A DNA stretch of 64,000 nucleotides from Vibrio azureus (GTDB lineage Bacteria > Pseudomonadota > Gammaproteobacteria > Enterobacterales > Vibrionaceae), in contig NZ_CP018617.1 in the NCBI RefSeq assembly GCF_002849855.1, positions 806,001-870,000 of the forward strand. Reading direction: 5' to 3'. Below the pieces are notes generated by a model, which was not told the origin of the DNA, searched no databases, and worked only from the letters and a program-made list of their open reading frames with translations. The translations under genes and the position numbers were made by a program. Position 1 is the first letter of the stretch. The number at the start of each line of letters is the position of its first letter. Positions 7,339 to 50,535 of the stretch are shown here, piece after piece.

Positions 7339-7439
7339 TAGAAAAACCATGAGATATAAAATATAGGCTTGTAATATGTCACATTGAAGTATTAATTGAT
7401 AGCGTATATGTCTAATACTTTATGATCCCGTAAGTTAAA

Positions 7440-26328: not shown

Positions 26329-27357
26329 ATGAGTATATTTTCAATGCAATTATCCATGTTCCGAGGAACCCCTTTTGCGTACTATTGGCCAGATCTTCGA
26401 AAAGAAGTACAAATTGATATCGAAGAAGAAGACCCTAAGGAGCCGATTTCGTCTGTAAGTGATGATGTACTTACTCTACGCACGGGCTCTCACTTGCGTC
26501 GAAACTTTGTTCTTATTCCTTTACTAATAATGTTCACCGTTTTTTCGGCTATTATGATGGTGAATGCTCAACCCCGCTTCTCTTACAGTAAGGAGGATGC
26601 TGCTGATATGATAAAGTATCATAAAAACAGTGTAGCCGAATTTACTGAATATTCAATTGAAGCAAAAAAGAATGGAGATATTAAAAAATACAATGATTAT
26701 CAAAAGATTATTCAGCGTAGCTTAAAACAAATTCAAGGGTATAAAGTTTATACAGATAAAGAAGGCTCGATAACAATTTTCACCCATATGAAGGCGTTAG
26801 CCACTTTTGGCAACGGTGAGCTTAAGGAGTTTATATTATATATAGCTGTATTCGGAGGGCTCTATGGAGTCACTCTCTTTTTTTGGGCCTTCTTTCTACT
26901 AAAACCTCGTGATGCAGAAGTATACTTTGATCGACGGAAGCAAATTGTCTATTCGTGGCGAGCAGGGAGAGTAGGTGCAGCTGCATTTGATAAAGTGGGT
27001 TTGATGACCAACAACACGGGATTGTGTATCGTTTTAAATTTTGAAACGAAAAAGCGTGATGGTTATGTAGTCAAAGCAATGCCAGCCATTGATATAGATA
27101 AGTTTGTTGGTCATGTCTCCAGTGATTATATCTACACGTTGGGTCAGATCCTTGCTTTTATGGATGATGGTAAGGAAGCGTTGATTGCTGCGGATTCATT
27201 TGAAAGGCCTCAGACAAAGTTTTTCCTCCGTGACAGTAAAAAGCCCGAAGATTTAGAGGCGCGTATTGAAGCCGCTCTAAAAGGTGGGGAAGAATTTTTG
27301 GACAAATATCAAAGCCACATTATCTGGGGGTTTGGAGACTTCAATTTCAAGAAGTGA
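26329..27357 (+). CDS. Two-span membrane protein, DUF6708-like, paralogue B (342 aa)
   Basis: This is the partner of 4192-5217. The first ~70 and last ~165 residues are nearly identical in the two (C-terminal EVYFDRRKQIVYSWRAGRVG). The loop between the membrane segments (about 78-170) differs at many positions but keeps lengths and some shared blocks (EAKKNGDIKKY, EGSITIFTH). The ribosome site and upstream leader are also copied. Such a split of conservation suggests diversifying or recombined specificity in the periplasmic part. Function as in paralogue A is inferred. Confidence 0.6.
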   Translation: MSIFSMQLSMFRGTPFAYYWPDLRKEVQIDIEEEDPKEPISSVSDDVLTLRTGSHLRRNFVLIPLLIMFTVFSAIMMVNAQPRFSYSKEDAADMIKYHKNSVAEFTEYSIEAKKNGDIKKYNDYQKIIQRSLKQIQGYKVYTDKEGSITIFTHMKALATFGNGELKEFILYIAVFGGLYGVTLFFWAFFLLKPRDAEVYFDRRKQIVYSWRAGRVGAAAFDKVGLMTNNTGLCIVLNFETKKRDGYVVKAMPAIDIDKFVGHVSSDYIYTLGQILAFMDDGKEALIAADSFERPQTKFFLRDSKKPEDLEARIEAALKGGEEFLDKYQSHIIWGFGDFNFKK

Positions 27358-34536: not shown

Positions 34537-35085
34537 ATGCAACCCAGTTTAAAAAGTGTTATGCATAACGCGGTCGTCGCTTGGCGTACCGAGGCCACGA
34601 AAGAACAGATTGCGGAATACATCTCACGTTTCTATCACAAGATGAAAATTTTTGAAGAGGAAGATTGCCAACGGCAACACTTACTTAAAGTCCCATCAGC
34701 ATTAAACAACTCAAACAATACCCAAAATCTATTTAGATACATCAGCAGAACAAGTCCAGAAGCGAAAGCGAATGTCATGGATCTGCTCCCCGCCATTATT
34801 GCCGCCATGCCCAAACAAAGAGCCACCGCTGCACTAAATCAGTTCCTTAATCCACTTGGCTATTCAGTCGCAGCCATTGGCTCAAGTCACGCTATGGCGA
34901 ACCGTGATCAACTGTTGGCCGATTTCAGCAAAGAATCTTCAGAAGCCCTTCGCTCAGTACTGTTACTGAGTGAGTACGCTTCGACGGATCAACTTCGTAA
35001 CGCTTACCGAGAGTTACAAGAGAGTGTCGGCTCTCATGAACCCTTACTCAAATATTTAGAGACATTAATGGTGCAGAAGGGCTAA
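34537..35085 (+). CDS. Phage regulatory CII-family protein (unit 2)
   Basis: The 182-aa protein (ATG 34537 after AAGGAAGG) matches the CP76/CII regulatory family of P2- and lambda-like Vibrio phages: QPSLKSVMHNAVVAWRTEAT, a leucine-rich helical C-terminal half, and an end with EPLLKYLETLMVQKG. It likely supports repressor synthesis or replication control. It is preceded by the small CTGG...CCAG hairpin. The unit 1 copy is truncated after ~70 residues. Confidence 0.75.
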   Translation: MQPSLKSVMHNAVVAWRTEATKEQIAEYISRFYHKMKIFEEEDCQRQHLLKVPSALNNSNNTQNLFRYISRTSPEAKANVMDLLPAIIAAMPKQRATAALNQFLNPLGYSVAAIGSSHAMANRDQLLADFSKESSEALRSVLLLSEYASTDQLRNAYRELQESVGSHEPLLKYLETLMVQKG

Positions 35086-35141
35086 CCCCCTGAATGCGAT
35101 TAATCACCACGCTAATAAGCAAAACAAGAGAACTTTGTGCA

Positions 35142-35201
35142 ATGAGTCTTTCTTATCAAAATTATGAATCTGCATTGAATGCGGGTAGGAGAGCCAGATG
35201 A
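35142..35201 (+). CDS. 19-aa leader peptide coupled to the O gene
   Basis: ATG 35142 opens a 19-codon frame (MSLSYQNYESALNAGRRAR) whose TGA overlaps the O start (ATGA, 35198-35201). The same peptide with small changes ends just before the O gene in unit 1 (MSLSYQNYNSALNARREA). Conservation of sequence and overlap in both units suggests it serves translational coupling. Confidence 0.5.
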   Translation: MSLSYQNYESALNAGRRAR

Positions 35202-36076
35202 GTATGCTTCTTACCGCTCAAGCCATGCAGTTAAAAGTCGGCAATGCGACCCGCAAACTCGTCTTGCTGAAGCTCGCAGATAACGCCAACGACAATGGTG
35301 TGTGTTGGCCATCTTATGAATACATCGCTGATATGTGCGAAGTCAGCCGCCGAACCGTGATGCGCCACATCAAAACATTGGAAGAAATGGGGTTGGTTTC
35401 AGTGAGTTCTCGTAAGGGAGAAAAGGGCAATTCGACCAATGTTTATCAGTTACATTTAGGGGGTGACAAATTGTCCTCTCCTAGTGACACACGATCACCA
35501 GGGGGGGTGACACAGGATCACCAACCTAGTGATCCTGTGTCACCCGGAATCAGTCATAGAACCAGTCATAAAGAACCTAAAAAAAATAAACAAAAAAAGT
35601 CTGCTGAATTTGAATCTTGTTTTAGCCAAATTTGGGCGGTATTCCCCACCAAAAAATCCAGGAAAAACGCGTTAGCAAAATTCATCAGCATCGTGAAAGC
35701 GCAGAGTGAACCTCCAGAAGTATTCACCGAGATGCTTTGCCAAGATATCGAAACCCGGGTGGCCAATCGGCAATTTGGTTTCGACAGGCTTCACCTAACG
35801 ACCTACTTGAATCAAGAGCGATGGAACGACGATCATGAAATCAACCAAGCAAGCCACGGAGGCGCAGAGTCACATGCACAGCGATTGGAGCAGCTTAACG
35901 CCGATTTGCTCGCCCGTTACGGCCACACTGCCACACCAATTCGACAATCAAATTTTGCACCTGAGTGTGGAGGATTGGATCCAAGCGAAGTTTGTGGAGG
36001 GATTTGGCACGAAATGGATTTACAAGGCACTCCCATCGACCTGGATTCAAGCGATTTCCACGATGTCAGTGACTGA
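35198..36076 (+). CDS. Phage replication initiator, O-type (unit 2)
   Basis: The 292-aa protein has an N-terminal winged helix (ANDNGVCWPSYEYIADMCEV, RRTVMRHIKTLEEMGLVSV). A polar linker rich in repeated TCACCAGG/GATCACC DNA, possibly origin iterons (35495-35545), follows, and then a C-terminal domain (WAVFPTKKSRKNALAKF, LHLTTYLNQERWND). It should bind the phage origin and recruit the P protein. Its last ~80 codons overlap the P gene in another frame, longer than usual for O-P pairs. Confidence 0.8.
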   Translation: MSMLLTAQAMQLKVGNATRKLVLLKLADNANDNGVCWPSYEYIADMCEVSRRTVMRHIKTLEEMGLVSVSSRKGEKGNSTNVYQLHLGGDKLSSPSDTRSPGGVTQDHQPSDPVSPGISHRTSHKEPKKNKQKKSAEFESCFSQIWAVFPTKKSRKNALAKFISIVKAQSEPPEVFTEMLCQDIETRVANRQFGFDRLHLTTYLNQERWNDDHEINQASHGGAESHAQRLEQLNADLLARYGHTATPIRQSNFAPECGGLDPSEVCGGIWHEMDLQGTPIDLDSSDFHDVSD

Positions 36077-36482
36077 CATTCGAAGAGCGATGAGCCAAAC
36101 GCTCTTGAAAGGGGATGCGTGGCCGCCAAGCTTACCTGAGTTCATCAACATGGGGCGAGAAGTGCTAGTCGATGTCGATGAAGCCTTCACTCGGATGCTG
36201 CACGGAATGCCAAAAGGGGACATCGAATACTGGGCCTCGCAAGAAATCGGTTTTATTTGTCGTACACAACTGCGTGAACGAGAAGCCAGAGCCAAGCATC
36301 GTAAAGTGCTGAGCAAGTATGCTGAAAAGGCGAGAGCAGGGGCATTACCCGCAAGAAATTCCCTACGCTTAGTGGACAAAACGAATGTAAAACCCATCAG
36401 TGAAATCACAAGACCTGACCCAAGCATGTTTGATAAAGACTCGGTGTTTGCAAGAGTCGCTGCAATGGGGGCTAGGGCGTAA
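35835..36482 (+). CDS. Replication protein P-type helicase loader (unit 2)
   Basis: The 215-aa product shows the P-family core: VEDWIQAKFVEGFGTKW, IRRAMSQTLLKGDAWPPSLP, EFINMG. The C-terminal tail VARVAAMGARA-like is shared with the unit 1 fusion. It should bring host DnaB to O at the origin. The start could be 35835 or 35874; either way it overlaps the O gene by more than 200 nt. The stop overlaps the Q gene's ATG (TAATG). The central part is absent from unit 1. Confidence 0.8.
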   Translation: MKSTKQATEAQSHMHSDWSSLTPICSPVTATLPHQFDNQILHLSVEDWIQAKFVEGFGTKWIYKALPSTWIQAISTMSVTDIRRAMSQTLLKGDAWPPSLPEFINMGREVLVDVDEAFTRMLHGMPKGDIEYWASQEIGFICRTQLREREARAKHRKVLSKYAEKARAGALPARNSLRLVDKTNVKPISEITRPDPSMFDKDSVFARVAAMGARA

Positions 36483-37069
36483 TGAAATTGGAAAGATTAC
36501 TGGCCAAATTCAACGTAAAAGGGATGAACTACGACCCATCGAGCGGTGGGAAAGGTCTCATTTCACACGAAGAACAGTTGGCCATCGTCGGTGCAGTCTG
36601 GAAGGAATCGCCAATTGGATTTTTAGTGTTATTCGTAGAGTGCCTGCAAGATAAAACTGCACTTCACAAGCTGTACCAAGCCACTTTGCTTGAAGCGAAA
36701 GCCCTGATGGATAAATGGCGTGGCCCATACGCGGAAAACGCCCTTCATGCACTCGTATCCACAGCCATTGCAGAAGCCACGCAGCAGTCTGGCCAAATTT
36801 GCCCAGAGTGTAATGGCAGCGGAAAATACATTGCCAAAAACCGAGCCAGAAGGACCTGCCCATGCTGCGACGGTGGCCGTATAAGTTGGACCCAAGAAAC
36901 CCGTTTCGCTTTTTTCTGCCAAACCTTGCCCGTTACCTTTTCACGTTTTAAAAGGTACGAACCTATTGTTGGTAAGTTGGTAAAGTATTTAGTTGATAAA
37001 CGCAATGCAGCGACTTTGGTGTTACAGGGAAGGTGGAAGCAAGAAGAGGCAGTAGCGAAGGAGTTATAA
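36482..37069 (+). CDS. Q-type antitermination protein (unit 2)
   Basis: The 195-aa protein is a close copy of 10804-11391, with the zinc-ribbon centre CPECNGSG...CPCCDGGR. It is followed by three terminator hairpins (37317, 37419, 37564) and then the cargo and lysis genes, the expected stage for Q-dependent read-through into late genes. It starts within the P stop codon. Confidence 0.85.
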   Translation: MKLERLLAKFNVKGMNYDPSSGGKGLISHEEQLAIVGAVWKESPIGFLVLFVECLQDKTALHKLYQATLLEAKALMDKWRGPYAENALHALVSTAIAEATQQSGQICPECNGSGKYIAKNRARRTCPCCDGGRISWTQETRFAFFCQTLPVTFSRFKRYEPIVGKLVKYLVDKRNAATLVLQGRWKQEEAVAKEL

Positions 37070-37316
37070 GCTTAGGTATAACTCCTCAATGGTGCTTCGC
37101 TGATTAAGTATGTAGACAGGATTTAGTCTTCTAGGTAGTCAGTCTTTACTTCTAAATATGGATTGTCTTAAAGTCCATAGAATAAAAAGAGAAGTTTGAA
37201 AAATTAATCGCTTAACTGTGACATAGCCCTTTGCAGCCATATAACGTTGGGTAGTATATTGACGTGGCATTGATGTACTTTTTGAAGTACTTTCTACATT
37301 AGTAATCTTTTCATGA

Positions 37317-37349
37317 CCAGCCAATAACCATCTTGGCTGGTTTTTTTTT
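37317..37349 (+). terminator. Strong terminator (tR'-like)
   Basis: The stem CCAGCCA / TGGCTGG is followed by nine T residues. It is the first terminator downstream of Q and a natural target of antitermination. Confidence 0.8.
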
Positions 37350-37418
37350 ATTACCAGTTGCTAAAGTATGAATGGGAGACTAGGCTGTAAAAGTAGAGTT
37401 TATACTCCGAGCCACTTT

Positions 37419-37450
37419 CCTTAGCTTCCAGTCGTAGCTAAGGCTTTTTT
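37419..37450 (+). terminator. Second strong terminator
   Basis: The stem CCTTAGCT / AGCTAAGG has a 9-nt loop followed by CTTTTTT. It lies 70 nt after the first terminator. Confidence 0.8.
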
Positions 37451-37556
37451 CTCTTATCTCGTTAATTCAGCCAGTGTCGAAAAGTCCATAGTTTTAAAAC
37501 GTTAACCTTCCTGGCTTCCTTCTTTTCTTGAAGAATTCAACAAAACACTTGCGCGC

Positions 37557-37592
37557 AAAAAAAAGCCCAATGGAGTAGACATTGGGCTAAGT
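37557..37592 (-). terminator. Minus-strand terminator
   Basis: The stem AGCCCAAT / ATTGGGCT is preceded on the plus strand by A8, giving a T tract on the minus strand. It would stop leftward transcription coming from the cargo genes toward Q. Confidence 0.7.
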
Positions 37593-37883
37593 TTACGTAG
37601 CTAACAGTGACAGTAGTGAAAAGTCTGGGGAGACTTTCCAGATACTCAAAAACTATAGTCAATGCCTTTTAAAAGATCCCTTTTGGGATACTAAAAACAT
37701 CACTCTTCGAGAATAAATTGAAAAAATGTGATGAGTTGCAAATTATCGCGGTGCTTAAATCATTGGATTCAGAAGTGACGCCTACGTAACCTCAAATTAT
37801 GGAAAAGTAAGTTTTAGAACTGTTAATTTCCAACCATTCACATATGCCATAATTTGCACATAATCGTAAATAGAGACAAATAT

Positions 37884-38354
37884 ATGCCCCCAAGTCATGA
37901 TCAAGACATACACCAATGTATTGAAGAAATATTAATAAAAAGTCCTTCTGCTTCGTCTTTTACCTTGCGTCAAGAAGTTAAAATGAGTGTTCAAGGTCAA
38001 TGTCAGTATCATCACCTCCTGCCATTCTATGAAAGTGGCCTTGTCAATGACCGAGCAGATATTTATCGAGAAATCCAACTCATGCTGGATAAAGGGTATG
38101 GGTTCACATTGATTGCCAAATTGATTTCGTGTGATCGATTTAATTACCTGCAGGTGGCGCAAATTCTGAATAGATTAGCAAGAGGACTGAACCATCTTGA
38201 ACAAGCAAGAAAATGTAAGCTCCTCTCTTTTGGCTTTAAAACGGTCAATGACTCAGATGAGCAAGCCCGGATCATGACACATCTAAAAAATAAAGGGCAT
38301 CGTTTAACCGATGTGTGGCAAGTGATTCATGATGAACGCAATGGAGAGATTTGA
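37884..38354 (+). CDS. Unknown helical protein, first cargo gene (156 aa)
   Basis: ATG 37884 is preferred over TTG 37854. The soluble, helical product has two similar segments: REIQLMLDKGYGFTLIAKLI and ARIMTHLKNKGHRLTDVWQV, both following the pattern x-L-x-x-K-G-x-x-x-T-x-h. This suggests an internal repeat such as a degenerate helix-turn-helix pair. I do not recognise the family. It is the first gene after the late-control terminators and could be a regulator of the cargo, which is inference. Confidence 0.5.
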   Translation: MPPSHDQDIHQCIEEILIKSPSASSFTLRQEVKMSVQGQCQYHHLLPFYESGLVNDRADIYREIQLMLDKGYGFTLIAKLISCDRFNYLQVAQILNRLARGLNHLEQARKCKLLSFGFKTVNDSDEQARIMTHLKNKGHRLTDVWQVIHDERNGEI

Positions 38355-38464
38355 CGAAAGACGAGCTTGTATCCTAGGAGACACATTTGAATGAAGCATA
38401 AATCAATAGCCATATGAGCTAAAAGCCACTTTGCTGCAATCGTCCTAGGATATTCGTTTAATAA

Positions 38465-38704
38465 CTAGTCATAAAAGGGGGGGTAAAGTGTGTAGCCATC
38501 TCTAAAACTGACTGAATGAACCCCTTTCTCATTCAGTAACCTCCTGTGCTCATGCATCAATTGCTGGTGATTGAAATCGCAATAGAGATGGATGTCAGAG
38601 TGTGACTGATTACTATGATAAATGTCTATGAGCTCTGTCAAAGAGACTTCCAATAATTCTAGCTCTTCAATATACAACAATGGGGGGGCAAAGACTTCTT
38701 CCAT
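38465..38704 (-). CDS. Small acidic protein, unknown (79 aa)
   Basis: The short product begins MEEVFAPPLLYIEELELLEV, contains a histidine-rich middle (HSDIHLYCDFNHQQLMHEHR) and ends FRDGYTLYPPFYD. There is no signal peptide or membrane segment. It lies 110 nt upstream of the end of nothing else on its strand, so it is probably monocistronic. Not recognised. Confidence 0.4.
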   Translation of the reverse strand: MEEVFAPPLLYIEELELLEVSLTELIDIYHSNQSHSDIHLYCDFNHQQLMHEHRRLLNEKGVHSVSFRDGYTLYPPFYD

Positions 38705-38873
38705 GTTCTTACCTCGGTCAATAAAATCATTAGAAAAATAGACGACCTGTTGTTAAACGAGCGTGATGTAGCGCATAATTTTTGTTGCAAATTAACAAGT
38801 CTATGAATGATAGATGAAAATATTTTGATGTGGCCGTCGCTTCAAAACGACGGCCAGAGCAAGACGCTTTAGA

Positions 38874-40457
38874 CTAGAAATCCGCTTGCAGTGATACCCC
38901 AGAGTAATCTGAATAGGCATTCAGCATAATGTGGTAACGCCCTGTTTCTGAATTATTTATTGTGCAAGTTTCTCGATTTCCTAGTTTATAGGGGCGGCAG
39001 TCCCAAGTCTGTTTTGTCGGCTTATCCCCAAATTTTAGGTACATATCTGCATCGCCGTTGCCGCCGATCATCAACACATTTAAGGTGGTGCCTTTTACTA
39101 AATCAACATAGAAAAACTGCTGCTCACCTTTCGGAGCACTCAGATTGTGAATGGGTACACCGGACAGTAATTGCTGGTCTGGAGAAGGGGTCGGGGTAGG
39201 CTTGTTACAATCAACCTTACAAGCGTCATCAGATAAGCTGTAGAGTAATTTATTAGCCGTATTACGGTTATCTGAAACTTTGTTGTCACTGGCGCGAGCG
39301 ATCAATCGCTCCGAGACTTGTGCTGGTAAAAGGGTCTCATCTTCTTGTAAATACAATGCTGCTACACCTGCTACATGAGGTGTTGCCATTGAGGTGCCAC
39401 TAATCGTCCTATAACCGCCATCGAACCAAGCCGATTTAATGCCAGAGCCCGGTGCAAACATATCAACACATGAACCCCAGTTAGAAAAGCTTGAGCGTGA
39501 GTCATTTCGGGTCGTTGACCCAACCGTAACGCCTGGCTCGACACGTGCTGGAGAGCCATTACAGGCGTCTGCATTTTCATTACCCGCAGCGAGCATGTAA
39601 CTAATCCCAGACTCAATAGATTTCTCTACGGCATTATCCAAAGCCAGAGATTTTCCACCACCGAGACTCATATTGGCCACCGATGGTCCGCTTGCGTGTC
39701 CTGTCACCCAATCCACGCCAGCTATCACTCCGGAGGTGGAACCTGAGCCACTACAACTTAAGACTCTGACCCCAACCAGCTGAATGTTTTTTGCCACGCC
39801 GTATTGTGCGCCACCAATCGTACCTGCTACATGGGTTCCATGGCCGTGACAGTCAGAAGTATCATTATCCTTATCCACTGCATCATAACCTGAAATGGAA
39901 CGGCCACTGAATTCTTCATGTTCATTGTTAATGCCGGTATCAATGACGTAAGCGGTCACACCCGTTCCATCATACTGGGTTGTATATTGGCTATCTAACG
40001 GCAAATCACGCTGATCGATGCGGTCGAGCCCCCAAACTGCGTCGTCTTGAAGGAGAGAAGGCGACAAAATTGGCCCCAATTCGATGACTTTATCCTGTTC
40101 AATAAAGTCAATACGTGGGTCCATACGAAGTACATTAAGCTGATGAGTGTCTAATCTGGCAACAAATCCCCCCATGGAATGGTCAAAAATTTGCTCTATA
40201 TTGATGGATAAATCTTGGGCGACATCATTAATGACTTGATGAGTGAACTGTTTTAGCTCAATGGAGTTACTTTCTATGACACCTGGCAGCTTGAGAGAAA
40301 CAATGTACTGTCCAGGGATCCCGCTGCTCGCAGGTGCTAACAGTAGAGGCGCCTTATCTTCCTTAGTTCCATCGAAATGTTGAGTGAAACCAGCATTTGC
40401 ATAAGTTAAAGTTATGGCGGTGAGACCACCGATTATAGATATTTTCAGCATATTCAT
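38874..40457 (-). CDS. Secreted S8 (subtilisin/proteinase K-like) serine protease
   Basis: The 527-aa precursor has a signal peptide (about 1-22, end YANA), an I9 inhibitor propeptide (GQYIVSLKLPG to PRIDFIEQD), and a proteinase-K-like catalytic domain. Its triad is Asp173 (AYVIDTGIN), His206 (CHGHGTHVAGT) and Ser356 (SGTSMATPHVAG), with oxyanion Asn293. A proline-rich linker and a C-terminal pre-peptidase (PPC) domain (VDLVKGTTLNVLMIGGNGDA) follow. This is the layout of Vibrio alkaline serine exoproteases. It should be exported and cleave proteins outside the cell. It sits inside the prophage between Q and lysis, facing away from the late genes, with its own promoter region upstream. Confidence 0.93.
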   Translation of the reverse strand: MNMLKISIIGGLTAITLTYANAGFTQHFDGTKEDKAPLLLAPASSGIPGQYIVSLKLPGVIESNSIELKQFTHQVINDVAQDLSINIEQIFDHSMGGFVARLDTHQLNVLRMDPRIDFIEQDKVIELGPILSPSLLQDDAVWGLDRIDQRDLPLDSQYTTQYDGTGVTAYVIDTGINNEHEEFSGRSISGYDAVDKDNDTSDCHGHGTHVAGTIGGAQYGVAKNIQLVGVRVLSCSGSGSTSGVIAGVDWVTGHASGPSVANMSLGGGKSLALDNAVEKSIESGISYMLAAGNENADACNGSPARVEPGVTVGSTTRNDSRSSFSNWGSCVDMFAPGSGIKSAWFDGGYRTISGTSMATPHVAGVAALYLQEDETLLPAQVSERLIARASDNKVSDNRNTANKLLYSLSDDACKVDCNKPTPTPSPDQQLLSGVPIHNLSAPKGEQQFFYVDLVKGTTLNVLMIGGNGDADMYLKFGDKPTKQTWDCRPYKLGNRETCTINNSETGRYHIMLNAYSDYSGVSLQADF

Positions 40458-40844
40458 TCCTTGATTGAAAAAAGCCGCCCCTTCAACCTGTTATTAAAGG
40501 AGGTGCATATTGATAACTACGACTACTAAAATCTATATCAATAAGTGCGTTTTAATTCGATGACTTTGCCGCTTTTATCCAAAATACGACCAGTAATAAA
40601 ATACTCTGTAACAAAATGTAACAAGAATAAGGTTCACGAACGTCGGAGATAGAGTGAATAGGGGGAGTATTGAGGTTGGGAGGGCCTTAGAGGCTACGCA
40701 AAAGGAAAACCGAATAAGAGTTGTGATGTAGCACACATAAATACTATTCTGTTTGGTATTTTAATAACGAATCTGAGAAAGCGAGCTAGTCTGTTTGTGT
40801 AAGCTTTTTCTCGGTAGTTTTAGCTTGCACTACTCATACGACTT
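40458..40844. other. Protease promoter region
   Basis: A non-coding stretch between the protease and a small peptide gene. It must hold the protease promoter on the minus strand. I see AT-rich sequence but no certain promoter boxes or binding sites. Confidence 0.4.
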
Positions 40845-40976
40845 TCAACCTATTTGCAATACGACTTTGCCCGGCGTTACCTTGAATGCGCTGGGCTTCT
40901 TTTTTGTTGAAGCATTGTGTCGCTTTGCTCCGATTTCCTGTTCAATCTCAGCTAGCTCATGGCGTATTTGTTCCAT
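40845..40976 (-). CDS. Short coiled-coil peptide, truncated copy (43 aa)
   Basis: Start 40976 has AGGAGTAGG upstream. The peptide begins MEQIRHELAEIEQEIGAKRH, nearly the same as the start of the 72-aa protein at 44330-44548. It then diverges into a basic, probably frame-altered end. Its start and leader lie within the direct repeat that flanks the PARIS-like genes. It may be a decayed copy. Confidence 0.45.
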   Translation of the reverse strand: MEQIRHELAEIEQEIGAKRHNASTKKKPSAFKVTPGKVVLQIG

Positions 40977-41105
40977 TTTCCTACTCCTTTTCAATTCATT
41001 GCCTGAAACAAACCTACCATTTTGATTACCAAAATTACTATTCACAGAAAAAGCTTTGCGTGAGGTGGTCTGTATCGATCAAACCTTACGGAAAGTGACT
41101 ATAGA
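40931..41105 (-). repeat. Direct repeat left of the PARIS-like genes
   Basis: It matches 44503-44728 in the same orientation. It covers the start of a short coiled-coil gene, its ribosome site and leader, and ends near CTTACGGAAAGTGACTATAG. The other copy has an extra ~50 nt in the leader. The two copies enclose 3.4 kb of cargo. Confidence 0.75.
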
Positions 41106-41107
41106 AA

Positions 41108-41416
41108 TTATAATTCTTTAAGAATAGGACTTTCAGGGTTGGTCTCTTCCAGTATTTTTACAATTTTTTCGAGCAGTTTATCTTCTTCATTTGAATAGAA
41201 TTCTTTTTTAATTTTAATTGTTGTATCGACTAGTTCATTTGTCTCAATTTTAAAGCCTAACCCTTCAAATGTACCTCCACAAAGTAGAAAAACAATGACA
41301 AATGGGAGAAGGCTACCAGTTAGACCTAATTCAATAACCCCCATAGCATCATTTTTCAAATAAAAAGTGACCATAGAAACAGGTTGCCGAAACTGTAATA
41401 AACTATTTAAAATCAT
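41108..41416 (-). CDS. Single-span membrane protein, unknown (102 aa)
   Basis: The product has one hydrophobic segment (LGLTGSLLPFVIVFLLCGG, about 30-50) and a charged helical C-terminus (KEFYSNEEDKLLEKIVKILE). There is no good ribosome site, and the start is uncertain. It lies directly inside the left flank repeat, downstream of the nuclease gene on the same strand but 290 nt away. It could be an accessory part of the system; not recognised. Confidence 0.4.
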   Translation of the reverse strand: MILNSLLQFRQPVSMVTFYLKNDAMGVIELGLTGSLLPFVIVFLLCGGTFEGLGFKIETNELVDTTIKIKKEFYSNEEDKLLEKIVKILEETNPESPILKEL

Positions 41417-41705
41417 ACGGTGAGGTATGTTGTTTTTTGTGGGAGAGTTGGTATAGATGGCATGTTATTTTAGCCGAGGTTTAGAGGACGGTAGTGTTTG
41501 CCCTTTTCCAGTTAGTACTTTTACTCATTCAAAACCTGTTAATGTGCGTTTGTCATACTAAAAGTTATCCAAATTCAGTATATGCCGAGATTATGCATCA
41601 AGAGACGTTTCAACTTCTCAATACCACAACTAACTTACGGATTTTTTGAAGCTTTAGAAAATTGCGCTAGTTATAAAATCCAGCGCAACTAAAGTTAATT
41701 TAAAT

Positions 41706-42569
41706 CTAGATGCTAGGTGTAATAACAGAGTTTCGACAATCTATTACTTGAGATATGTCGCAGTTCAAAGCAAGTCTTTGCTTGAAGTTCATATGTGATA
41801 CACTCTTATTCAAAATCGTAGATACCTTACTGTGAATCATAGGGTAGAGGTAATCTTTTCCCGATACATGCGTTGTCAACTTACATAACGAAGATTCCAT
41901 TCTTTCAAGTATTTCTTGGTATGTTTCAGTAAATATTTCTTGCCCTTTAGAATTTATTATCACGTCATTGAGTTCCGAAATTTTATACTTTACTTTTTCT
42001 GGGTCGATTGTTGAATTATACTTATCATCAAGGAAATCTTTAATAGGAATTGAAACATTAGGTACACTGGGAATGTTTAACTTTTGAATCATTGCATACC
42101 TGATAAACAATTCAACAAGTGGATACTCACAAACTGATTTCCATTCGTCGTAAGAGAATTCACTAACGATGTCCTCTTCACGTAAACTTGTATGCTCTTC
42201 ATTAATGTAATTAATAATTGCGTTGACATCAAGTAGAAGGTTTTCGACACAATAATAAGGTAAACGAAAGACACCACGAGGAAGTTCATTTTCCCCTTTT
42301 AATATGTAAAGGTCACCATCAACAACAAATAGAGTTGGTTTTTTAATATTGCCTTTTTTCTCGTTACATTTTTTTATGACGTTACCTCTAGAGCCAATAG
42401 GATATACATTGTCAATCTTGTATTGATCATTAAATATTCTCTTGAAAATATTCACATATAGTTTGTCGTAATTTTTTGCAGTATCTTCTATATAAATATC
42501 AATATCATTGTATGTATCCAATAGTTTTGATTTAGAAAACTTAGCTGCATCTTTCCTCTGCAAAGTCAT
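41706..42569 (-). CDS. ariB: DUF4435 protein, AriB-like effector nuclease of a PARIS system
   Basis: Start 42569 lies immediately after the ATPase stop. The 287-aa protein begins MTLQRKDAAKFSKSKLLDTY and carries the DUF4435 (OLD-type TOPRIM) signature: LFVVDGDLYIL with paired acidic residues, then RLPYYCVENLLLDVNAI. An ABC ATPase gene directly before a DUF4435 gene is the PARIS arrangement (AriA-AriB). In PARIS, AriA releases AriB after sensing a phage anti-restriction protein, and AriB then cleaves host tRNA. Effector motifs look intact. Assignment rests on domain pair, order and sizes. Confidence 0.75.
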   Translation of the reverse strand: MTLQRKDAAKFSKSKLLDTYNDIDIYIEDTAKNYDKLYVNIFKRIFNDQYKIDNVYPIGSRGNVIKKCNEKKGNIKKPTLFVVDGDLYILKGENELPRGVFRLPYYCVENLLLDVNAIINYINEEHTSLREEDIVSEFSYDEWKSVCEYPLVELFIRYAMIQKLNIPSVPNVSIPIKDFLDDKYNSTIDPEKVKYKISELNDVIINSKGQEIFTETYQEILERMESSLCKLTTHVSGKDYLYPMIHSKVSTILNKSVSHMNFKQRLALNCDISQVIDCRNSVITPSI

Positions 42570-42570
42570 C

Positions 42571-43934
42571 TTATATCCCCCACCTCTCGATCGGAGTGCA
42601 ATAATCATCATATTCGCCAATGATATCAGGAGAGTGTGTTGCCAAAATTAATTGAATATTACTATTTATCTCTCTCAATGCAGAGATAAACATATCCTGC
42701 CACTTTATGTGTAGGGATATTTCTGGTTCATCTATAATAATACTGTTAATATCGTTCTTTCTCGAGAATACCATGTTGGCTATTATGATGACTAGTTGCT
42801 TTTCACCAGAAGAGAGTTCATCTATTTCTACTTTATGTGAGCTATTTTTAATGCTTGCGTAAATATTACCTATTGAGTTTATAACTATTTTTTTTCGGTT
42901 TCATCAAAAAAGTAATTTACTACCTTTTCAAAAAGATCAATTTTTTTTCTCTTTTCGTCAAGGTTGGATTTATGCTTGTCTATTATTTTCACGAGGTTAT
43001 AAATTCGTTCCACTTGGGTTATGTTGAGTAAGTACTCAAGTGTAAACTTCATTTCTTCTCGATCTTTGTTTTTTGAAAAAGCTTTGTCGTAAAGTCCATC
43101 GAGTTTCTCAAAGAAAGATGAACTCATAGTGCTAAGTTCATGACCTTTTATTTCTATATTATTAAGGACATCTAGTATTTCGTTTTTCCTTTCTTTTACT
43201 TCTAGAAAGCGAGATTCAATCATCGATTGACTATCTATGATTCCATCATAGTTATCAATGTATGTAAAAGATGAAGTTATTATGTTATTTCTTAAAGTAT
43301 TTAGTTGAGCGTTTTCGTATTTCTTAATTCTCTTAAATTCATTATTAACTAGTCTCTTGCAATCGTTAAGAGCAACATCAAAGCTGTCTATTTCTCTCTC
43401 GATCTTTTCATCAAACATTTTAATATTATAGCTTCCAAATAAGTCATCTTTAGATAGTAAATCCTTTTTTTTGTTTGATATTCTTCTGTTTAATCCTATT
43501 AACATTGGTGCGTTAATATTTGAGAATATATTGAAGTCTGAATTGTCATTCATAACTTCCATATTGTATCTATCAATGAAATCATTAACTATTGTGGATT
43601 TTTTATTGCCAAATATGTTATTTTTTCCAGTGTTTTTCACTGAAATTTTAAAGTCGTTAACATAAAAGTCTAAGCTGGCTTCAGCTTCAGGTTCTAATTT
43701 TTCAATTAGTATTTTATAATCTTTTTCTCCTACATTTATTAAAAGTTCAAATGTCTTAAATGATGTCTCATTAATTTTTTTTATATCTAATTTTAGTACT
43801 GACTCAATTAAACATAATATGCTGGTTTTACCACTTCCGTTTACACCTGTTATAATGCTTAGTTCGTGATTAAATCTTATTTTTTTCGAAATATATTTAT
43901 GCAAATCTTGAGTTTTTACACTTAGTATTTTCAT
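42571..43934 (-). pseudogene. ariA: AAA15/ABC ATPase, AriA-like, frameshifted at an A8 run
   Basis: The first part (349 codons from 43934) has Walker A (TGVNGSGKTS, 29-38) and a coiled-coil middle, and ends GAA AAA AAA TAG near 42885. The neighbouring frame continues without loss: VEIDELSSGEKQLVIII (ABC signature), NSIIIDEPEISLHIKWQD (Walker B) and ATHSPDIIGEY (switch histidine). It stops at 42571, one base before the DUF4435 start. Joined, the protein has ~454 residues, normal for AriA. One base (an A) is missing from the run as read. It may be a null allele, a phase-variable tract, or corrected by slippage or frameshifting. Confidence 0.75.
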
Positions 43935-44329
43935 TGTATGCTCCTATGCAACTAGTGTTTATGATACATTGACACTCAGTGTGTCACAAGCATCGTAAAA
44001 GTTTTCAACATGACGTTTAAGAGTGATTCTCAACGCTTGGCATTTTCAGTTTGTATCGATTTTAGTGATCTGCACTATCAACTATGGACTTCAAGTTAAG
44101 CTACTTTTCATACCTGTAGTTATTCATGAACTGCTAATGTTCGAGTTTCTGAAACTGATTCATGTCCAAGAACCATTCACATAAAGCCTACTTTTTTGCG
44201 TCAAACCTATCGATACCGTAGTAAGATAGAATAGACATACTACCGACAACTTGAGTGTGGAAGCCTTTCAAAAGGGGAGTCCACAAAAATTTGTCTTTAT
44301 GTTCAAAAATCCAAGGGGTTACACGCCCA
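43935..44329. other. Region upstream of the ATPase gene
   Basis: It contains the promoter side of the PARIS-like pair (minus strand). A frame at 44188-44406 overlaps the next small gene and has no ribosome site, so I do not call it. No RNA gene is evident. Confidence 0.4.
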
Positions 44330-44548
44330 TTAATCATCACTGAAAAGAGCAATGTACTCAGGTGAATAGATGTTAATGTATTGTTGGTGGGGAGCATAGA
44401 GCTCAAATAGTATCTCTAAGGTATCAGTTTCAACTTGAACCATCGGGGATTTATTAGCTTTTGCCTGTTCAAGGGCAGCTTGTGCAGTTTGTAGTTTTTC
44501 GCCGATTTCCTGTTCAATCTCAGCTAGTTCATCTTGCACTTTTTCCAT
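44330..44548 (-). CDS. Short coiled-coil protein (72 aa)
   Basis: Start 44548 has GAGGAATAGG upstream. The product begins MEKVQDELAEIEQEIGEKLQ, a heptad-type helix, continues QAALEQAKANKSP and ends in a compact part (ILFELYAPHQQYINIYSPEY). It lies within and beside the right flank repeat of the PARIS-like genes; a shortened relative is at 40845-40976. Not recognised. It may mark a common insertion site for cargo. Confidence 0.5.
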   Translation of the reverse strand: MEKVQDELAEIEQEIGEKLQTAQAALEQAKANKSPMVQVETDTLEILFELYAPHQQYINIYSPEYIALFSDD

Positions 44549-44728
44549 GTTCCTATTCCTCTTCAATTTAATACCTGAAACAAACCTACCATGCTGATTA
44601 TCAAACTTACTATTCACAGAAAGCACTTTGCGTGACATCACACAGGACCTTAGGAAACGAGATGTAGATTAAGTGGCGTATTGTGTGAGGTGGTCTGTAA
44701 CGATCAAGCCTTACGGAAAGTTACTATA
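44503..44728 (-). repeat. Direct repeat right of the PARIS-like genes
   Basis: This is the second copy of 40931-41105. Its outer part continues with a weaker match (AGAGTTGG-ATGATGGC... and GGCGGTAG at 44808-44855 against 41452-41496). Confidence 0.7.
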
Positions 44729-44819
44729 GAAAAAAGTTGTCGAAACGATAAATAATCCCTTTTGTGAACTCAAATACAGTATGGTATTTTGTTTTCTTAT
44801 TTATAGAGAGTTGGAATTG

Positions 44820-44882
44820 ATGGCTGGTTACTATGGCCGAGAAGTAAAGGGCGGTAGCTTTTATACTTTGTACTCCATCTAA
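44820..44882 (+). CDS. Possible 20-aa peptide
   Basis: ATG 44820 to TAA 44880-44882 encodes MAGYYGREVKGGSFYTLYSI. A related start (MACYFSRGLEDGSV) occurs at the matching place in the left flank (from about 41458). It may be a conserved short peptide or just repeated leader sequence. Confidence 0.25.
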   Translation: MAGYYGREVKGGSFYTLYSI

Positions 44883-44955
44883 AGAGTATAATTTTGTCTT
44901 TAAATATAAAATTTCTCTACCTAATAGTGGTTATACAATAGGAGTTAAAAGTAAG

Positions 44956-46008
44956 TTGTTGGTTAAATATTATGGTTTGATTGATGATGAAAGTGGTAAT
45001 GGTCTAATCCCAAGATTTCAATTTCTAATAAATGGTAAATTTCGTTTTACTCAGCCAAAGTATTTAAATGATAAAGGTAGCGAATCAAAGTTGCTTCCTT
45101 ATTTCAACCGGTTTTCCCCATCAGACCTAAAATGGGCAAAGCGGCAACATGACAAATGGCAGGCTGATCCTGATTATGTCCCTTCGGATGAAGAATTGAT
45201 TAATATGCATTTGAGACCATCAGGCATAAGGCTTGATGACTGCTTTCCGACCATGATTCTAACAGAAAAAAACTTTGATTCTGTGTCTGATTTTGAAGAA
45301 CATAAATTTAAAAGTATGGTTTCGAGTGTTAACACGCTTATCCTTGATGCTTTAAGTAGCCAAATTGGTGTACTTTCACTAAGTAATACAGCGACAAATG
45401 AATTAATGTGGACACACTATGCTTCTGAGGGCAAAGGGATAGCGATTTCATTCAATGAAGCTCATCCATTCTTCACTAAACACATACCTCTTCCTGTGAC
45501 TTATAAATCAGAAGATAGAGCATGTATTACCTATTTTGAAGGTAATTGGCGTATAAATGGTGAACCAGTTGAAAGTTATCAAACTTCAGAAAAATCAAGT
45601 GCAATTGAAGCTTATACTCAAATGTTGTCTAACGGGGTTGATATTGATGAGCTGACGAAGCGACTAATGTTCTCAAAAGCACATAAATGGGCTTATGAAG
45701 ATGAAACACGTATTGTCTTGCCACTTGAGCTTTGTGATGAAAAGCTCGGTCCAATAATAAAACTGCCGGAAGAAATAAGCAGTCTTAATGTTAAACTTTT
45801 AAATTTAGGCAATTACCCTGAAGTATGCCTAAAGAGAATTCCGTTTGATGCGTTCGACACTTTATTTTTTGGTTATAATTTGGATAATGTCCATAAAGAA
45901 AAAATCATCAAAGCTGTGAAAAATAATAAAGAGCTTTCACATTTAAAAATAAAGTCAGTTAAACATGATATTTATGGGGAAATTGAGCTTGTTGAAGCTT
46001 TTATATGA
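44956..46008 (+). CDS. DUF2971 protein
   Basis: The start is TTG (44956 or 44959) with TAGGAG upstream. The 350-aa protein shows DUF2971 marks: an N-terminal FRFTQPKYLNDK, the central GVLSLSNTATNELMWTHYAS with a GIAISFN continuation, and a later KWAYEDETRIVLP. The family is frequent in defence islands and mobile elements and may bind or modify NAD-like or nucleotide ligands; the biochemical role is not established. It is the first rightward gene of the defence block, 200 nt before the reverse transcriptase. Confidence 0.75.
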   Translation: MLVKYYGLIDDESGNGLIPRFQFLINGKFRFTQPKYLNDKGSESKLLPYFNRFSPSDLKWAKRQHDKWQADPDYVPSDEELINMHLRPSGIRLDDCFPTMILTEKNFDSVSDFEEHKFKSMVSSVNTLILDALSSQIGVLSLSNTATNELMWTHYASEGKGIAISFNEAHPFFTKHIPLPVTYKSEDRACITYFEGNWRINGEPVESYQTSEKSSAIEAYTQMLSNGVDIDELTKRLMFSKAHKWAYEDETRIVLPLELCDEKLGPIIKLPEEISSLNVKLLNLGNYPEVCLKRIPFDAFDTLFFGYNLDNVHKEKIIKAVKNNKELSHLKIKSVKHDIYGEIELVEAFI

Positions 46009-46209
46009 CATTTTTTTTGGTGTTAGAATACTTTTTTAGTTTGAAATTAACACTTTAAATCCCAACTTAAATGCGATTTTGGATTAGATTTTAAAACTAT
46101 AATTATGGGTAGTAGTAATGATTGGGGACTTTATCACTTGGACTCCATTTTTTAATAATAAACATTTCAATTTTTAGTTAATAATATATTATAAATATAA
46201 GGTTAGGTA
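46009..46209 (+). other. AT-rich leader before the reverse transcriptase
   Basis: These 200 nt are very AT-rich and hold no gene beyond a 16-codon frame (46105). Many defence reverse transcriptases have a non-coding RNA next to them, so this is the place to look. I cannot see a stable conserved fold by eye. Confidence 0.3.
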
Positions 46210-47733
46210 GTGAGTAAATTAACAGAAGAATCATTGGAATTCGCAAAGAAACACATCAGCTCATTTTACGACTCAGACTTTTTCCCAAAAACGTTTGAAT
46301 TTGAAGCTATTTGGTATAACTGGGAAGATGTTAAAAAGCATCTAAGCTCTACTAATATATCGAAGTTGAGGGTTAAACATCCTTTATCCCTAGCTTCTAA
46401 GAAGCCGAAAGGCAGTTATAGAATCGTCCATCAGTTAGAGCCATTGGATACAATTATTTATACAGCATTAGCTTACGAATTTGCTGAAGCTATAGAATTA
46501 TCTCGAACTCCAGAAAAACAAAAAATAGCTTGTTCATATCGTATAGAGCTAAGTGAAGGTGGTTTCTTTTCCAAAGACAACGGTTTTAAGAACTTTACTG
46601 AAAGAACAGAGAAGTTATCCACTAGTTACGAATATGTTTTAACAACCGACATTACTGACTTCTATAATCAAATTTATTTACATAGATTAAATAATGCTCT
46701 TGAGCTTGCAGCCCCTAGCTTGAAAAATAAAGCAGACGATCTTGAATCATTTCTTACAAGTTTAAATGATAAATCATCACAAGGTATTCCTGTTGGACCT
46801 GCGGCAAGTATTTTAATGTCAGAGGCAATATTAGTAGATATAGATCGTTTCATATTCGAAAAAGGTGTAGAACATACAAGGTATGTTGATGATTTTAGAA
46901 TTTTCTCAGACTCTAAGCTTGAGCTGGAGAAGGTACTTGAAGAGTTAACTCTTTATCTGTACGAAGCTCACAGGCTTTCACTAGCTACAGACAAAACGAG
47001 GATACTCGAAACTGAACAATATGTAGAAGGTACACTCCACAATCAATATGAACTAGAGAAAGTGGAAATATTCAGAACCTTAGAGGTTTTAAACCCCTAT
47101 TCAGGTGAGGTTGATTTCGTCGAAGTGCCAGTTGAAGACGAAGACGAAAAAGTAGAGCATCAACTGAATGAAATCTCTGATCAGCTCCTGAAGCGTGATA
47201 CTTTAGATCTTGGTTTAGCTCGGGCATTAATCAGAAAGGCTAAAAAAAGCAAAAATATCTCAATTGCATCTGTGATATTAGATAATTTTGAGTTTTTTGT
47301 GCCTGTTATAAACGACGTGGTTTTGTATTTCGAAGAAGTTACTAATGAGAGTTTTACAAAGGTACACAAAAAACAGCTTAAGTCTGTTATAAATAATGAT
47401 GCAGCTCAAAGCCAAATTGTTCGCTTTTGGTTAGAGTGGTATGTCGCTCACAATAGTTTATTACTAGAAGACCGTGAATTCAGACAGTACATTCATGGTA
47501 GTGAGTTTATTGAAAACCAAGCTATTGCAGCTGTAACAACAAAGAATGTGTCTTGGGTACGTGATATCAAAAAAGACGTATACAACGTAGGTGAGAAAGG
47601 AAAGCGTGCCATTTTGTTTGCAACACAAATATTACCTACTGATGAGCGAACCCATTGGTTAAAGTTATTTGCTAAAAACTCACCGGAAGAGCTTGATCGT
47701 TGGATTGCTAAGTGGATTTTGGAAGCAAAGTAA
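46210..47733 (+). CDS. Defence-type reverse transcriptase (UG/DRT-like)
   Basis: The start is GTG 46210 with AGGTTAGGT upstream. The 507-aa protein contains the catalytic palm motifs: YRIVHQLEPLDTIIYTAL (about 70-87), A-box VLTTDITDFYNQIY with Asp147 and Asp150, B-box SQGIPVGPAASILMSEA (190-206) and the C-box YVDD (225-228). The second half (about 300-507) is helical without a known nuclease. This matches unknown-group reverse transcriptases linked to abortive infection, which make cDNA or untemplated DNA after phage attack. The exact class is not assigned. The nuclease gene starts 34 nt downstream, so they likely share a transcript. Confidence 0.88.
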   Translation: MSKLTEESLEFAKKHISSFYDSDFFPKTFEFEAIWYNWEDVKKHLSSTNISKLRVKHPLSLASKKPKGSYRIVHQLEPLDTIIYTALAYEFAEAIELSRTPEKQKIACSYRIELSEGGFFSKDNGFKNFTERTEKLSTSYEYVLTTDITDFYNQIYLHRLNNALELAAPSLKNKADDLESFLTSLNDKSSQGIPVGPAASILMSEAILVDIDRFIFEKGVEHTRYVDDFRIFSDSKLELEKVLEELTLYLYEAHRLSLATDKTRILETEQYVEGTLHNQYELEKVEIFRTLEVLNPYSGEVDFVEVPVEDEDEKVEHQLNEISDQLLKRDTLDLGLARALIRKAKKSKNISIASVILDNFEFFVPVINDVVLYFEEVTNESFTKVHKKQLKSVINNDAAQSQIVRFWLEWYVAHNSLLLEDREFRQYIHGSEFIENQAIAAVTTKNVSWVRDIKKDVYNVGEKGKRAILFATQILPTDERTHWLKLFAKNSPEELDRWIAKWILEAK

Positions 47734-47767
47734 AATTTTAGTAGTTGTTGTATTTAAGAGGTAGATT

Positions 47768-48721
47768 GTGGCTGGAGAACGTTCTAAGACCATTGGTGAA
47801 GTTGGTGAAAGTATTGCTGAAAACTTTTTTAGTAAAATTGGGTGGGGCTTACCTCAGAAAGGGATCTATTATCCTTGCATAAAGCGTCAAAAGCATGCAC
47901 TTTCAACGTCTAAGAGTGGTGAAAAAACACAGCACGGTATTGATTTCCAATTTTCTTACAAGTCATTACTAGAGTCAGAAACTCTGAACCACCTTATTAT
48001 TTCTGTTAAACATGCCAAAGATAGTAAGTATCCAGCATCTGCTACTGCAAAGTTCAAAGGGTATATTCAAGATCTAGTTCATACAAGAGAGTGTTTTTTA
48101 CGCTCTGGAGAGCGAAGAGAGCTGAACGTAGATTACAAAGGGTGCAAGAGAATTAATGATATTCCCGTTTTATTCTACATATCAAGTTGTGACCATGAAG
48201 ATTTTGACTTCGTCTCAAAACTACAAAGCAGTAGATTTATGAATGACTATGATATAGGTGAGTTATATATAGTGGATAATCGTAGAGTATCATTTATCCT
48301 CAATGTTTTGACATATATTGAAAGTAAACATTCTGATTGGGATTGGAATTTTTTTAATCCATTGACTGGCATGAACATAGCTGACTCTACTATTATGCAA
48401 CATAATAAAAAAATGCAAGTAGAGTTCTTGAATAGTCCATTTGTCCCGTTTTTGCTAAAGAAGACTGTTGGCGGGCATGAAACTTGTAAATTCTTGGTTG
48501 CATCTATCGATGGATTTTCTGCAAATAACTTTGCAAAGCTGATAACATACTGTCGTCAGAACACTAATGACAATGTCAGTGATGTTGAGATTGTTACTGG
48601 TGATTATTTTCCAGATGATCATGACTCGATAATACGAAAAGTATTATCTTCGAATGAAATGGAACTAAATGTATCACTTGGTAACTTTAAGCCTAATTTT
48701 AGGAGTCTAGCTAATGTCTGA
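47768..48721 (+). CDS. PD-(D/E)XK nuclease-like protein resembling GapS4a
   Basis: The start is GTG 47768 after AGAGG. The 317-aa protein has a restriction-type fold near its front: GEVGESIAENFFSKIGW (Glu14), TQHGIDFQFSY (Asp59) and LNHLIISVKHAKDS (Lys81). This is the E...D...x-V-K pattern of PD-(D/E)XK enzymes. A further conserved-looking FKGYIQDLVHTRECF follows. The pattern recalls GapS4a of the Vibrio two-gene anti-phage system GAPS4, from memory. It should be a DNA nuclease activated on infection. It overlaps its partner gene by 8 nt and follows the reverse transcriptase closely. Confidence 0.65.
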   Translation: MAGERSKTIGEVGESIAENFFSKIGWGLPQKGIYYPCIKRQKHALSTSKSGEKTQHGIDFQFSYKSLLESETLNHLIISVKHAKDSKYPASATAKFKGYIQDLVHTRECFLRSGERRELNVDYKGCKRINDIPVLFYISSCDHEDFDFVSKLQSSRFMNDYDIGELYIVDNRRVSFILNVLTYIESKHSDWDWNFFNPLTGMNIADSTIMQHNKKMQVEFLNSPFVPFLLKKTVGGHETCKFLVASIDGFSANNFAKLITYCRQNTNDNVSDVEIVTGDYFPDDHDSIIRKVLSSNEMELNVSLGNFKPNFRSLANV

Positions 48722-49817
48722 CTTCTTTATTCCTACTGGTGATTACCTACGGCAATTTATTGGTAATTCAATGATAAAACCTGGTGATATCAAGGATATT
48801 TTAAAAAAAAGAGGGATCTTTTCTTCATCTAACGATAAAAAAATTCTTGGTCCTTTGTTGGTAAAAACTGGTATATCTCCGGATGAATTTGAAAGCTTGA
48901 AAGAGTCCATTCAGACGAAAGAAGAAAACCCTAAGGTCCAAACTAGAAAACTTGTCTGGAATAGTGAAGAAGATTTAGTTGATGCAATACCATATGATTT
49001 TGACTTTTCAGATTTAATAGTAGATCCGTTTGGAATATCCACTGTTGATAACGATCCATGCTTTTCTCTTGCAGGTGATGGAAAAGATCCAAATCATTTA
49101 GTTGCTGATATTGTCATTAAGAGAACAGATAAAACTAAAAACTTTGGGGATGACACTTCTTACCATAATTGTTCTATAGAATTAAAACTTGATGATAACA
49201 ACAATATTGATTTAAACATCACAGTCAAACACTCATCTAAAGAGAGTCTTAGTGTAATTAACAAGGTTTCAACCAGGGTCCATCATCATTTAAAAAGTAA
49301 CGGCTATGTTTCCCAAGAGCCAATGAAGAAAATTCTATTTGGTGACTTTACCAATGAGCATCGTGTAGATTTTCTCATTGAATTAGCTAAGTCAAAAGAA
49401 ATGTATTTATATTACCAAGACATTAAGAAAATTTACTTTGCTCCTGATGAAAATGTTAAAGGAGAAAAACCTCAAGAGATCGAGTGGTTTGAAAAGAAAG
49501 TTAAAGACTTAATGTTCAAAGGAGAAAAGCTGGATTCCAGTATTTTCTTGATAAAGCCCGAACTCAAGAAGCATCTAAAGTTATATAGTATAAGTTCTAG
49601 CCATGAGCTAAATGACTCTGATCATCAGGGCACCTGTGTGCTTAACCTTTATTTTCAAGGAATGGACGCGAATAGTGAGTTAATGATGGAAGTTGATGGT
49701 TTGAAGATTCAACAGAAGTTAGCAGATGAAAACAAGTCTATTATCAAGTTACAAGTACTAAAGTTTTTAGAAGCAAAGAAGCTAGAACTTTACGAAAAAT
49801 ATTCGCATAAAGAATAG
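48714..49817 (+). CDS. GapS4b-like partner protein
   Basis: ATG 48714 lies inside the nuclease gene. The 367-aa protein begins SDFFIPTGDYLRQFIG, then IKPGDIKDILKKRGIFSSS and LLVKTGISPDEFESLKE, a small helical region. A larger domain follows with mixed strands (ADIVIKRTDKTKNF, CSIELKLDDNNNIDLNITVK). I recall this N-terminal pattern from the second protein of GAPS4-type systems; its activity is unknown and presumably regulates or targets the nuclease. There is no catalytic motif I can name. It ends the defence block. Confidence 0.55.
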   Translation: MSDFFIPTGDYLRQFIGNSMIKPGDIKDILKKRGIFSSSNDKKILGPLLVKTGISPDEFESLKESIQTKEENPKVQTRKLVWNSEEDLVDAIPYDFDFSDLIVDPFGISTVDNDPCFSLAGDGKDPNHLVADIVIKRTDKTKNFGDDTSYHNCSIELKLDDNNNIDLNITVKHSSKESLSVINKVSTRVHHHLKSNGYVSQEPMKKILFGDFTNEHRVDFLIELAKSKEMYLYYQDIKKIYFAPDENVKGEKPQEIEWFEKKVKDLMFKGEKLDSSIFLIKPELKKHLKLYSISSSHELNDSDHQGTCVLNLYFQGMDANSELMMEVDGLKIQQKLADENKSIIKLQVLKFLEAKKLELYEKYSHKE

Positions 49818-49992
49818 TCAGACACATAATGATTGCTTTTATTTGAGTTCTTAAAGCCGATCTCGCTTCACTCAAACATAACACACCTAAATAAGCTGAG
49901 CATTTAACGCATCGTTATTGCGTTGCTAATATCTTAACAGTTGTTAGCAGTGCAAATTGAATTCAACTTTAAAAATAACTGGTAGGATAAGA

Positions 49993-50358
49993 ATGAACTT
50001 AGAGGCTTTAAAAGAAATTATTAGAAATCACCCGGAGATTCTTGAGGAGTCAGCTCGAGATAGTGGTGCCGATGAAAGTGTAGTTATGGGAATCGCTAAA
50101 TTTTCCAGTCGGAATGGCTATGAGGTAATGTCTGAACATCAGAAGTATCATTTTGATAAATCAATTCGTCATTTGGTGGAAGATGTTCAATGTTCAGGTT
50201 ATACACATGAATTTGAAGAAGAACATCAAGAGTGTCTAAATATCTTAGATGACGATGACTTGGTTGAGTATTACCAAAATGACGGGGGGTACTGTGAAAG
50301 CTGTCAAGGTCAATCCGACGCAGATGCACATAGTAAAGCATCATTTATGGCGGACTAA
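49993..50358 (+). CDS. Acidic protein with C-terminal cysteine pair (121 aa)
   Basis: ATG 49993 has AGGATAAG before it; a start at 49957 lacks one. The product is acidic and helical (LEALKEIIRNHPEILEESAR) with an acidic stretch (NILDDDDLVEYYQNDGG) and a CESC motif near the end. No family recognised. It lies between the defence block and the lysis genes, followed by a terminator (50536-50567). Confidence 0.45.
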   Translation: MNLEALKEIIRNHPEILEESARDSGADESVVMGIAKFSSRNGYEVMSEHQKYHFDKSIRHLVEDVQCSGYTHEFEEEHQECLNILDDDDLVEYYQNDGGYCESCQGQSDADAHSKASFMAD

Positions 50359-50535
50359 TCTGAAGAGTGCTGCGCACTGCTAATAAGCGTTTAGGGTTTC
50401 AACTAACTTTAACTAACCAGAATGAAATAGGTTAATGCATAGTGCAGTACCTCTAAAGCGTTTTTGTACAAATGTTATGACACATAGACCTAGTATTCTT
50501 GCTTTCCCCGCTCAAGTGTGCATAATTACTACAGT

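Follow-up and report, generated by a model that had tools for sequence, protein, structure and literature searches.

A DRT8 reverse transcriptase and a GapS4a/GapS4b pair in a Vibrio prophage cargo hotspot: most likely two stacked defence systems

In a 64,000-nucleotide stretch of the Vibrio azureus genome (hereafter, the window), taken from a 1.57-Mb contig (genome size 4.83 Mb), a DRT8-type reverse transcriptase (RT) gene is followed by the genes for GapS4a and GapS4b. We hold with high confidence that the trio represents two independent anti-phage systems, adjacent in a Vibrio prophage cargo hotspot: a DRT8 that most likely acts alone and a two-gene GAPS4 system. What is stacked here is most likely two already known kinds of defence, not a new three-gene machine, and we think it unlikely that this strain couples the RT functionally to the GapS4 pair. 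An earlier note on this DNA had left two options, either stacked systems or a single system of three genes whose nuclease is fed by cDNA; the former is supported by our analysis and the latter is contradicted by the co-occurrence counts given below. Family membership, the lack of co-occurrence, the existence of separate mobile units, and the hotspot are all read directly from the sequences. The analysis removes an RT-GapS4 three-gene system as a false lead, shows that both DRT8 and GapS4 are carried by integron arrays and by a prophage hotspot, and leaves a by-product worth keeping: DRT8 moves as an integron cassette of a single gene, and its predicted fold is DRT4/DRT6-like over the full length.

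The features of the window are listed in Table 1. The earlier note had described an RT followed by a PD-(D/E)XK protein and a GapS4b-like partner, and the profile searches bear out the RT and the GapS4a/GapS4b pair. The PADLOC model Drt8 (PDLC03783) matches the RT with 502 bits over residues 3-505 of 507, while the next-best PADLOC model, RT_UG21, reaches 128 bits; we take Drt8 to be UG7, from the order of the PADLOC numbers and from the literature. Besides this full-length match, the window RT shares with DRT8 its intact RT motifs, i.e., an intact polymerase active site, as D147, D227 and D228 are invariant in 38 of 38 aligned sequences. Its relatives have 24-63% identity and come from several phyla. 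Assignment to DRT4 by sequence was rejected (NF041749, 85.4 bits versus a cut-off of 450). Both partner proteins pass their curated NCBIfam cut-offs (GapS4a with 319 bits versus 270), and their genes are adjacent and overlap by 8 nt, an overlap also read from two relatives (L147 and L148), which makes the pair a member of GAPS4. What sets the window apart from other GAPS4 loci is the RT gene ending 34 nt upstream. Together with GapS4b, GapS4a would more likely than not cut DNA through its putative PD-(D/E)XK-like domain.

Table 1. Features of the window discussed in the text (positions are those of the window)
Feature	Position	Strand	Details
DRT8 (presumably UG7) reverse transcriptase	46210..47733	+	507 aa; catalytic residues intact (D147, YVDD 225-228)
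GapS4a	47768..48721	+	317 aa; probably an N-terminal PD-(D/E)XK-like nuclease domain
GapS4b	48714..49817	+	367 aa; GapS4a partner; NF047934 367 bits, cut-off 300
Prophage cargo hotspot holding the trio and other defence genes	37100..50500	.	in related prophages almost empty or with other contents
DUF2971 protein (PADLOC candidate PDC-S31)	44956..46008	+	PF11185 32.7 bits, cut-off 22; PDC-S31 66 bits
AriA/AriB-like (PARIS-like) pair	41706..43934	-	AriB PDLC02983 53.6 bits; AriA/PtuA-type AAA up to 32.5 bits
Partial attC-like sequence in the prophage cargo region	44007..44069	+	nhmmer E 1.8e-11, profile positions 2-64 of 120

The earlier note had suggested counting how often the RT and GapS4a/b occur together, and the counts turn out against a conserved association, the co-occurrence result that the note had named as a refutation. 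We examined 70 DRT8-type loci from other genomes, drawn from a scan of species genomes that gave 62 loci and from other searches; the number of independent loci is slightly below 70 (L150 is a second copy of L062, and L090 seems almost the same as L089), and the most distant members, at 24-28% identity, may fall outside a strictly defined DRT8. In 69 of the 70 the RT match exceeds 50 bits, and at least 1 kb of downstream sequence is available in 64 (less than 1 kb in six). A GapS4a or GapS4b homologue is found in the examined flank of none of the 70 (E <= 0.1). Conversely, in 14 GapS4-type loci that come from plasmids and genomes other than this one (both proteins are present in 13; L044 is a weak, distant match), no RT match is seen at E <= 1 in the 0.7-6 kb of upstream flank (about 0.7 kb in one). 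We found the trio in one other copy only, on the viral contig L107, which shares 8,926 bp with the window at 100% identity and is not independent of it.

The same holds for related genomes. Within 329 genomes of the family, RT matches above 100 bits occur in four (V. azureus, G963, G1023 and, as a distant match, G944) and GapS4a matches in seven (V. azureus, five clear others, and the marginal G594, E 8.4e-4), and V. azureus is the sole genome with both. Across 369 genomes of the class, GapS4a is present in two and DRT8 with at least 386 bits in four, and again only the genome of the window has both. On the other side of the balance, weak matches to other kinds of RT (21-48 bits) lie on other contigs of three GapS4a genomes (G762, G624, G052). 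As both parts are rare, independence predicts no co-occurrence elsewhere, whereas many instances would be expected of a conserved system of three genes; RT-GapS4a-GapS4b was rejected as such a system. Searches for GapS4 in phage records (tblastn with GapS4a) and in E. coli (blastn with both genes) gave no match.

The boundary between the two parts is also visible at the DNA level. The closest relatives of the pair, L147 (76% identity for GapS4a, 82% for GapS4b), L148 (67%) and L149 (64%), have other genes upstream and no RT, and DNA similarity between the window and these three starts at 47759-47769, at the GapS4a start codon, and stops at 49786-49811. The GapS4a copy of L147 is broken.

Integron arrays carry each part without the other: two genomes have DRT8 as a cassette of one gene, and another has GapS4a/b. 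In the array L151 (genome G1023), a DRT8 open reading frame (ORF) at 5760-7304 sits between attC sites at 5594-5713 and 7314-7404, with 46 nt of cassette sequence on its 5' side and 9 nt on its 3' side. In Aliiglaciecola (L045), attC-type sites of 105 and 66 nt lie on both sides of the gene (around 1300-3030), with 16 nt before the ATG, and at L058 an attC-type site directly follows the stop codon (after 3356); these two loci indicate that DRT8 cassettes extend beyond Vibrionaceae. In a pattern search of DRT8 flanks, the attC pattern is present downstream of DRT8 in 3 of 67 loci (L045, L058, L151) and upstream in 3 of 65, of which the one at L071 was discounted because it lies inside coding sequence; of 4,715 control windows 11 have the pattern, and part of these 11 belong to integron arrays. 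A separate nhmmer profile was built from nine L151 sites, so that L151 itself matches by construction. With this profile, the GapS4 pair of L147 (genome G762; genes at 5902-3839) is bounded by an attC site at 6085-5996 (E 2.1e-17) and a weak attC-like site at 3841-3759 (E 0.0037), in an array with further attC sites. The partial attC-like stretch in the window (Table 1) hints that integron cargo reached the prophage.

The layout of the trio leaves room for a variant of the stacked arrangement that is compatible with it, in which the two systems are separate but now co-transcribed, with additive or mildly synergistic effects and no common mechanism. The earlier note's description of the trio (one strand, a 34-nt gap, an 8-nt overlap, no terminator between the genes) agrees with the ORFs and our terminator search, in which no terminator-like site was seen between the three genes. 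The shared strand, the short gap and the lack of such a site fit an operon, which counts against reading the arrangement as simple stacking, and the RT and the GapS4 pair may share a transcript. Stacking in prophage hotspots also agrees with this variant; against it, promoter-like matches in the region are at chance level (15 found versus 21.6 expected), i.e., without excess. We consider the variant possible, though somewhat short of probable.

Turning to the DRT8 polymerase as a system of its own, its predicted fold matches DRT6 and DRT4 (UG15) along the full length, with the same architecture throughout, although sequence identity is only 14-19%; the abortive-infection polymerases AbiK and Abi-P2 align with lower coverage (375 and 411 residues) at 16-17% identity. 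The region C-terminal to the RT domain is helical and aligns with both DRT6 and DRT4, and within the window RT chain we saw no PD-(D/E)XK domain, from this helical C-terminal part and the fold comparison. In this respect it differs from DRT8 as characterised in the introduction of PMC12596737, i.e., by a PD-(D/E)XK domain. As a table in PMC10952713 lists Cap17-type effectors for DRT8, and given the PD-(D/E)XK remark, DRT8 appears in the literature with partners, which counts against the stacked reading; PMC13213688 and PMC13314766 describe its mechanism as unresolved. The full-length DRT6/DRT4 fold and the short cassette leaders (46 and 16 nt) favour a single-gene polymerase without a noncoding RNA (ncRNA). 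By analogy, we lean slightly towards a DRT8 that would act in the manner of DRT4 and DRT6, synthesizing DNA without a separate ncRNA and probably without a template (the latter suggested by the predicted fold), with a product that would turn toxic or sequester phage factors during infection. In the integron cassettes, with their one ORF and hardly any flanking sequence, DRT8 has a natural minimal unit, and these cassettes and the full-length fold make a one-gene, ncRNA-free DRT8 polymerase directly testable.

If DRT8 required a hidden ncRNA, as DRT2, DRT3 and DRT9 do, the RT gene would not be a complete system by itself. Other DRTs do need ncRNAs, according to PMC13213688, and an RNA that is structured without sequence conservation or that lies within the coding region would evade searches of flanks and of Rfam. 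However, a comparison of the flanks of 22 relatives and the window gave similarity only between L062 and L064, plus short downstream stretches shared by L045, L058 and L069, which in L045 and L058 are attC-type; the window region has no Rfam match up to E 0.1; the leaders before the cassette ORFs are short; and the nearest full-length folds are those of the single-gene DRT6 and DRT4. We regard such an RNA as unlikely, and a little more so since the second cassette (L045) was found.

Nor do the neighbours of DRT8 point to a conserved partner gene. When neighbours were clustered, no cluster covered more than 6 loci; we read the clusters as integrases, short-chain dehydrogenases, resolvases and similar proteins, whose distance from DRT8 varies. 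The nearest neighbours (90-900 aa, no further than 600 nt away) number 111, and 109 were scanned, the two of L090 being left out because they duplicate those of L089. Among the 25 commonest of the 146 Pfam families matched, none is present in more than 4 of the 109. Among downstream neighbours on the same strand (26 within 300 nt), 20 were scanned; none has a PD-(D/E)XK Pfam match, and 10 match nothing. GapS4a as the PD-(D/E)XK part of DRT8 is likewise out as a general feature, given its absence from the examined flanks of all 70 DRT8-type loci. DUF2971 was also rejected as a fixed partner: apart from the window and its identical copy, it accompanies DRT8 only in L106, a weak case and the single one among the 62 genome loci, and in L151, where it is in a separate cassette.

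Several loci merit a separate remark. DUF2971 is a weak but recurrent neighbour, present in the window, in the next cassette of L151 (7435-8373) and in L106 (3819-4709), where it lies upstream of a DRT8 gene truncated after about 30 codons, with what we read as transposase-like ORFs behind. In L062 and L064 (about 3360-7280), the genes around DRT8 are of SMODS (CD-NTase) and SLATT type, an arrangement that looks like insertion into, or attachment to, a CBASS-like module. At L009 (556-3039, minus strand), a DRT8-like RT has a C-terminal extension of about 300 residues, and at L102 an ORF further out resembles a restriction-type nuclease by eye. The sole DRT8 among 5,426 E. coli genomes, in strain C5 (L199), is in an island with an AAA ATPase and HNH pair, recombinases, and a second RT gene.

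A single three-gene system, in which the GapS4 nuclease would be triggered or fed by DNA that the RT makes on infection, or by the RT complex, has the close spacing, the single strand, the missing terminator and the PD-(D/E)XK remark in the introduction of PMC12596737 on its side, and is highly improbable in view of the co-occurrence counts in both directions, the separate occurrences in integron arrays, and the absence of an RT from the three GapS4 relatives of 64-76% identity. We give equally little credence to a functional unit in this lineage, in which DNA made by DRT8 during infection would activate the GapS4a/b nuclease as its ligand or its substrate; if true, it would link a DNA-writing defence to a DNA-cutting one.

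The two stacked systems share their location with other cargo. Prophage genes identified with PHROGs lie on both sides of the hotspot (integrase, repressor, Q-like antiterminator, endolysin, terminase, portal, head protease). A terminase search gave 27 viral contigs, of which two (L154 and L180) have the same source as the identical copy and the other 25 (L155-L179) are relatives. DNA similarity to the related prophages that span the region ends near 37.1 kb and restarts near 50.5 kb, and in the 17 relatives for which limits were set the hotspot is smallest in L166 (273 bp, almost without cargo) and reaches 5,736 bp. The RT, GapS4a/b, AriA/B and the DUF2971 protein are found in 0 of 26 loci (L155-L180, several of which span the region only partly) at E <= 1e-3. 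The region is thus a hotspot for defence cargo, as hotspot proteins of the relatives match PADLOC models: all ten chosen for scanning match some model at 1e-5, with full-length matches to GajA and GajB (L155), PtuB (L162) and PtuA (L175) and weaker ones for the rest.

Within the window's own cargo, the DUF2971 protein just upstream of the RT is likely a further defence gene. The AriA-like ATPase (42571-43934) reads in pieces, as ORFs at 42885-43934 and 42571-42774, and is probably broken. On either side of the AriA/AriB-like block, at 40912-41107 and 44484-44732, are direct repeats (152 nt at 83%, 52 nt at 92%), which suggest a stretch duplicated around an insertion. Elsewhere in the window, near-duplicate ORFs (4192-5217 and 26329-27357; 9645-11391 and 34537-37069) look as if two related phage-like elements lay close together.
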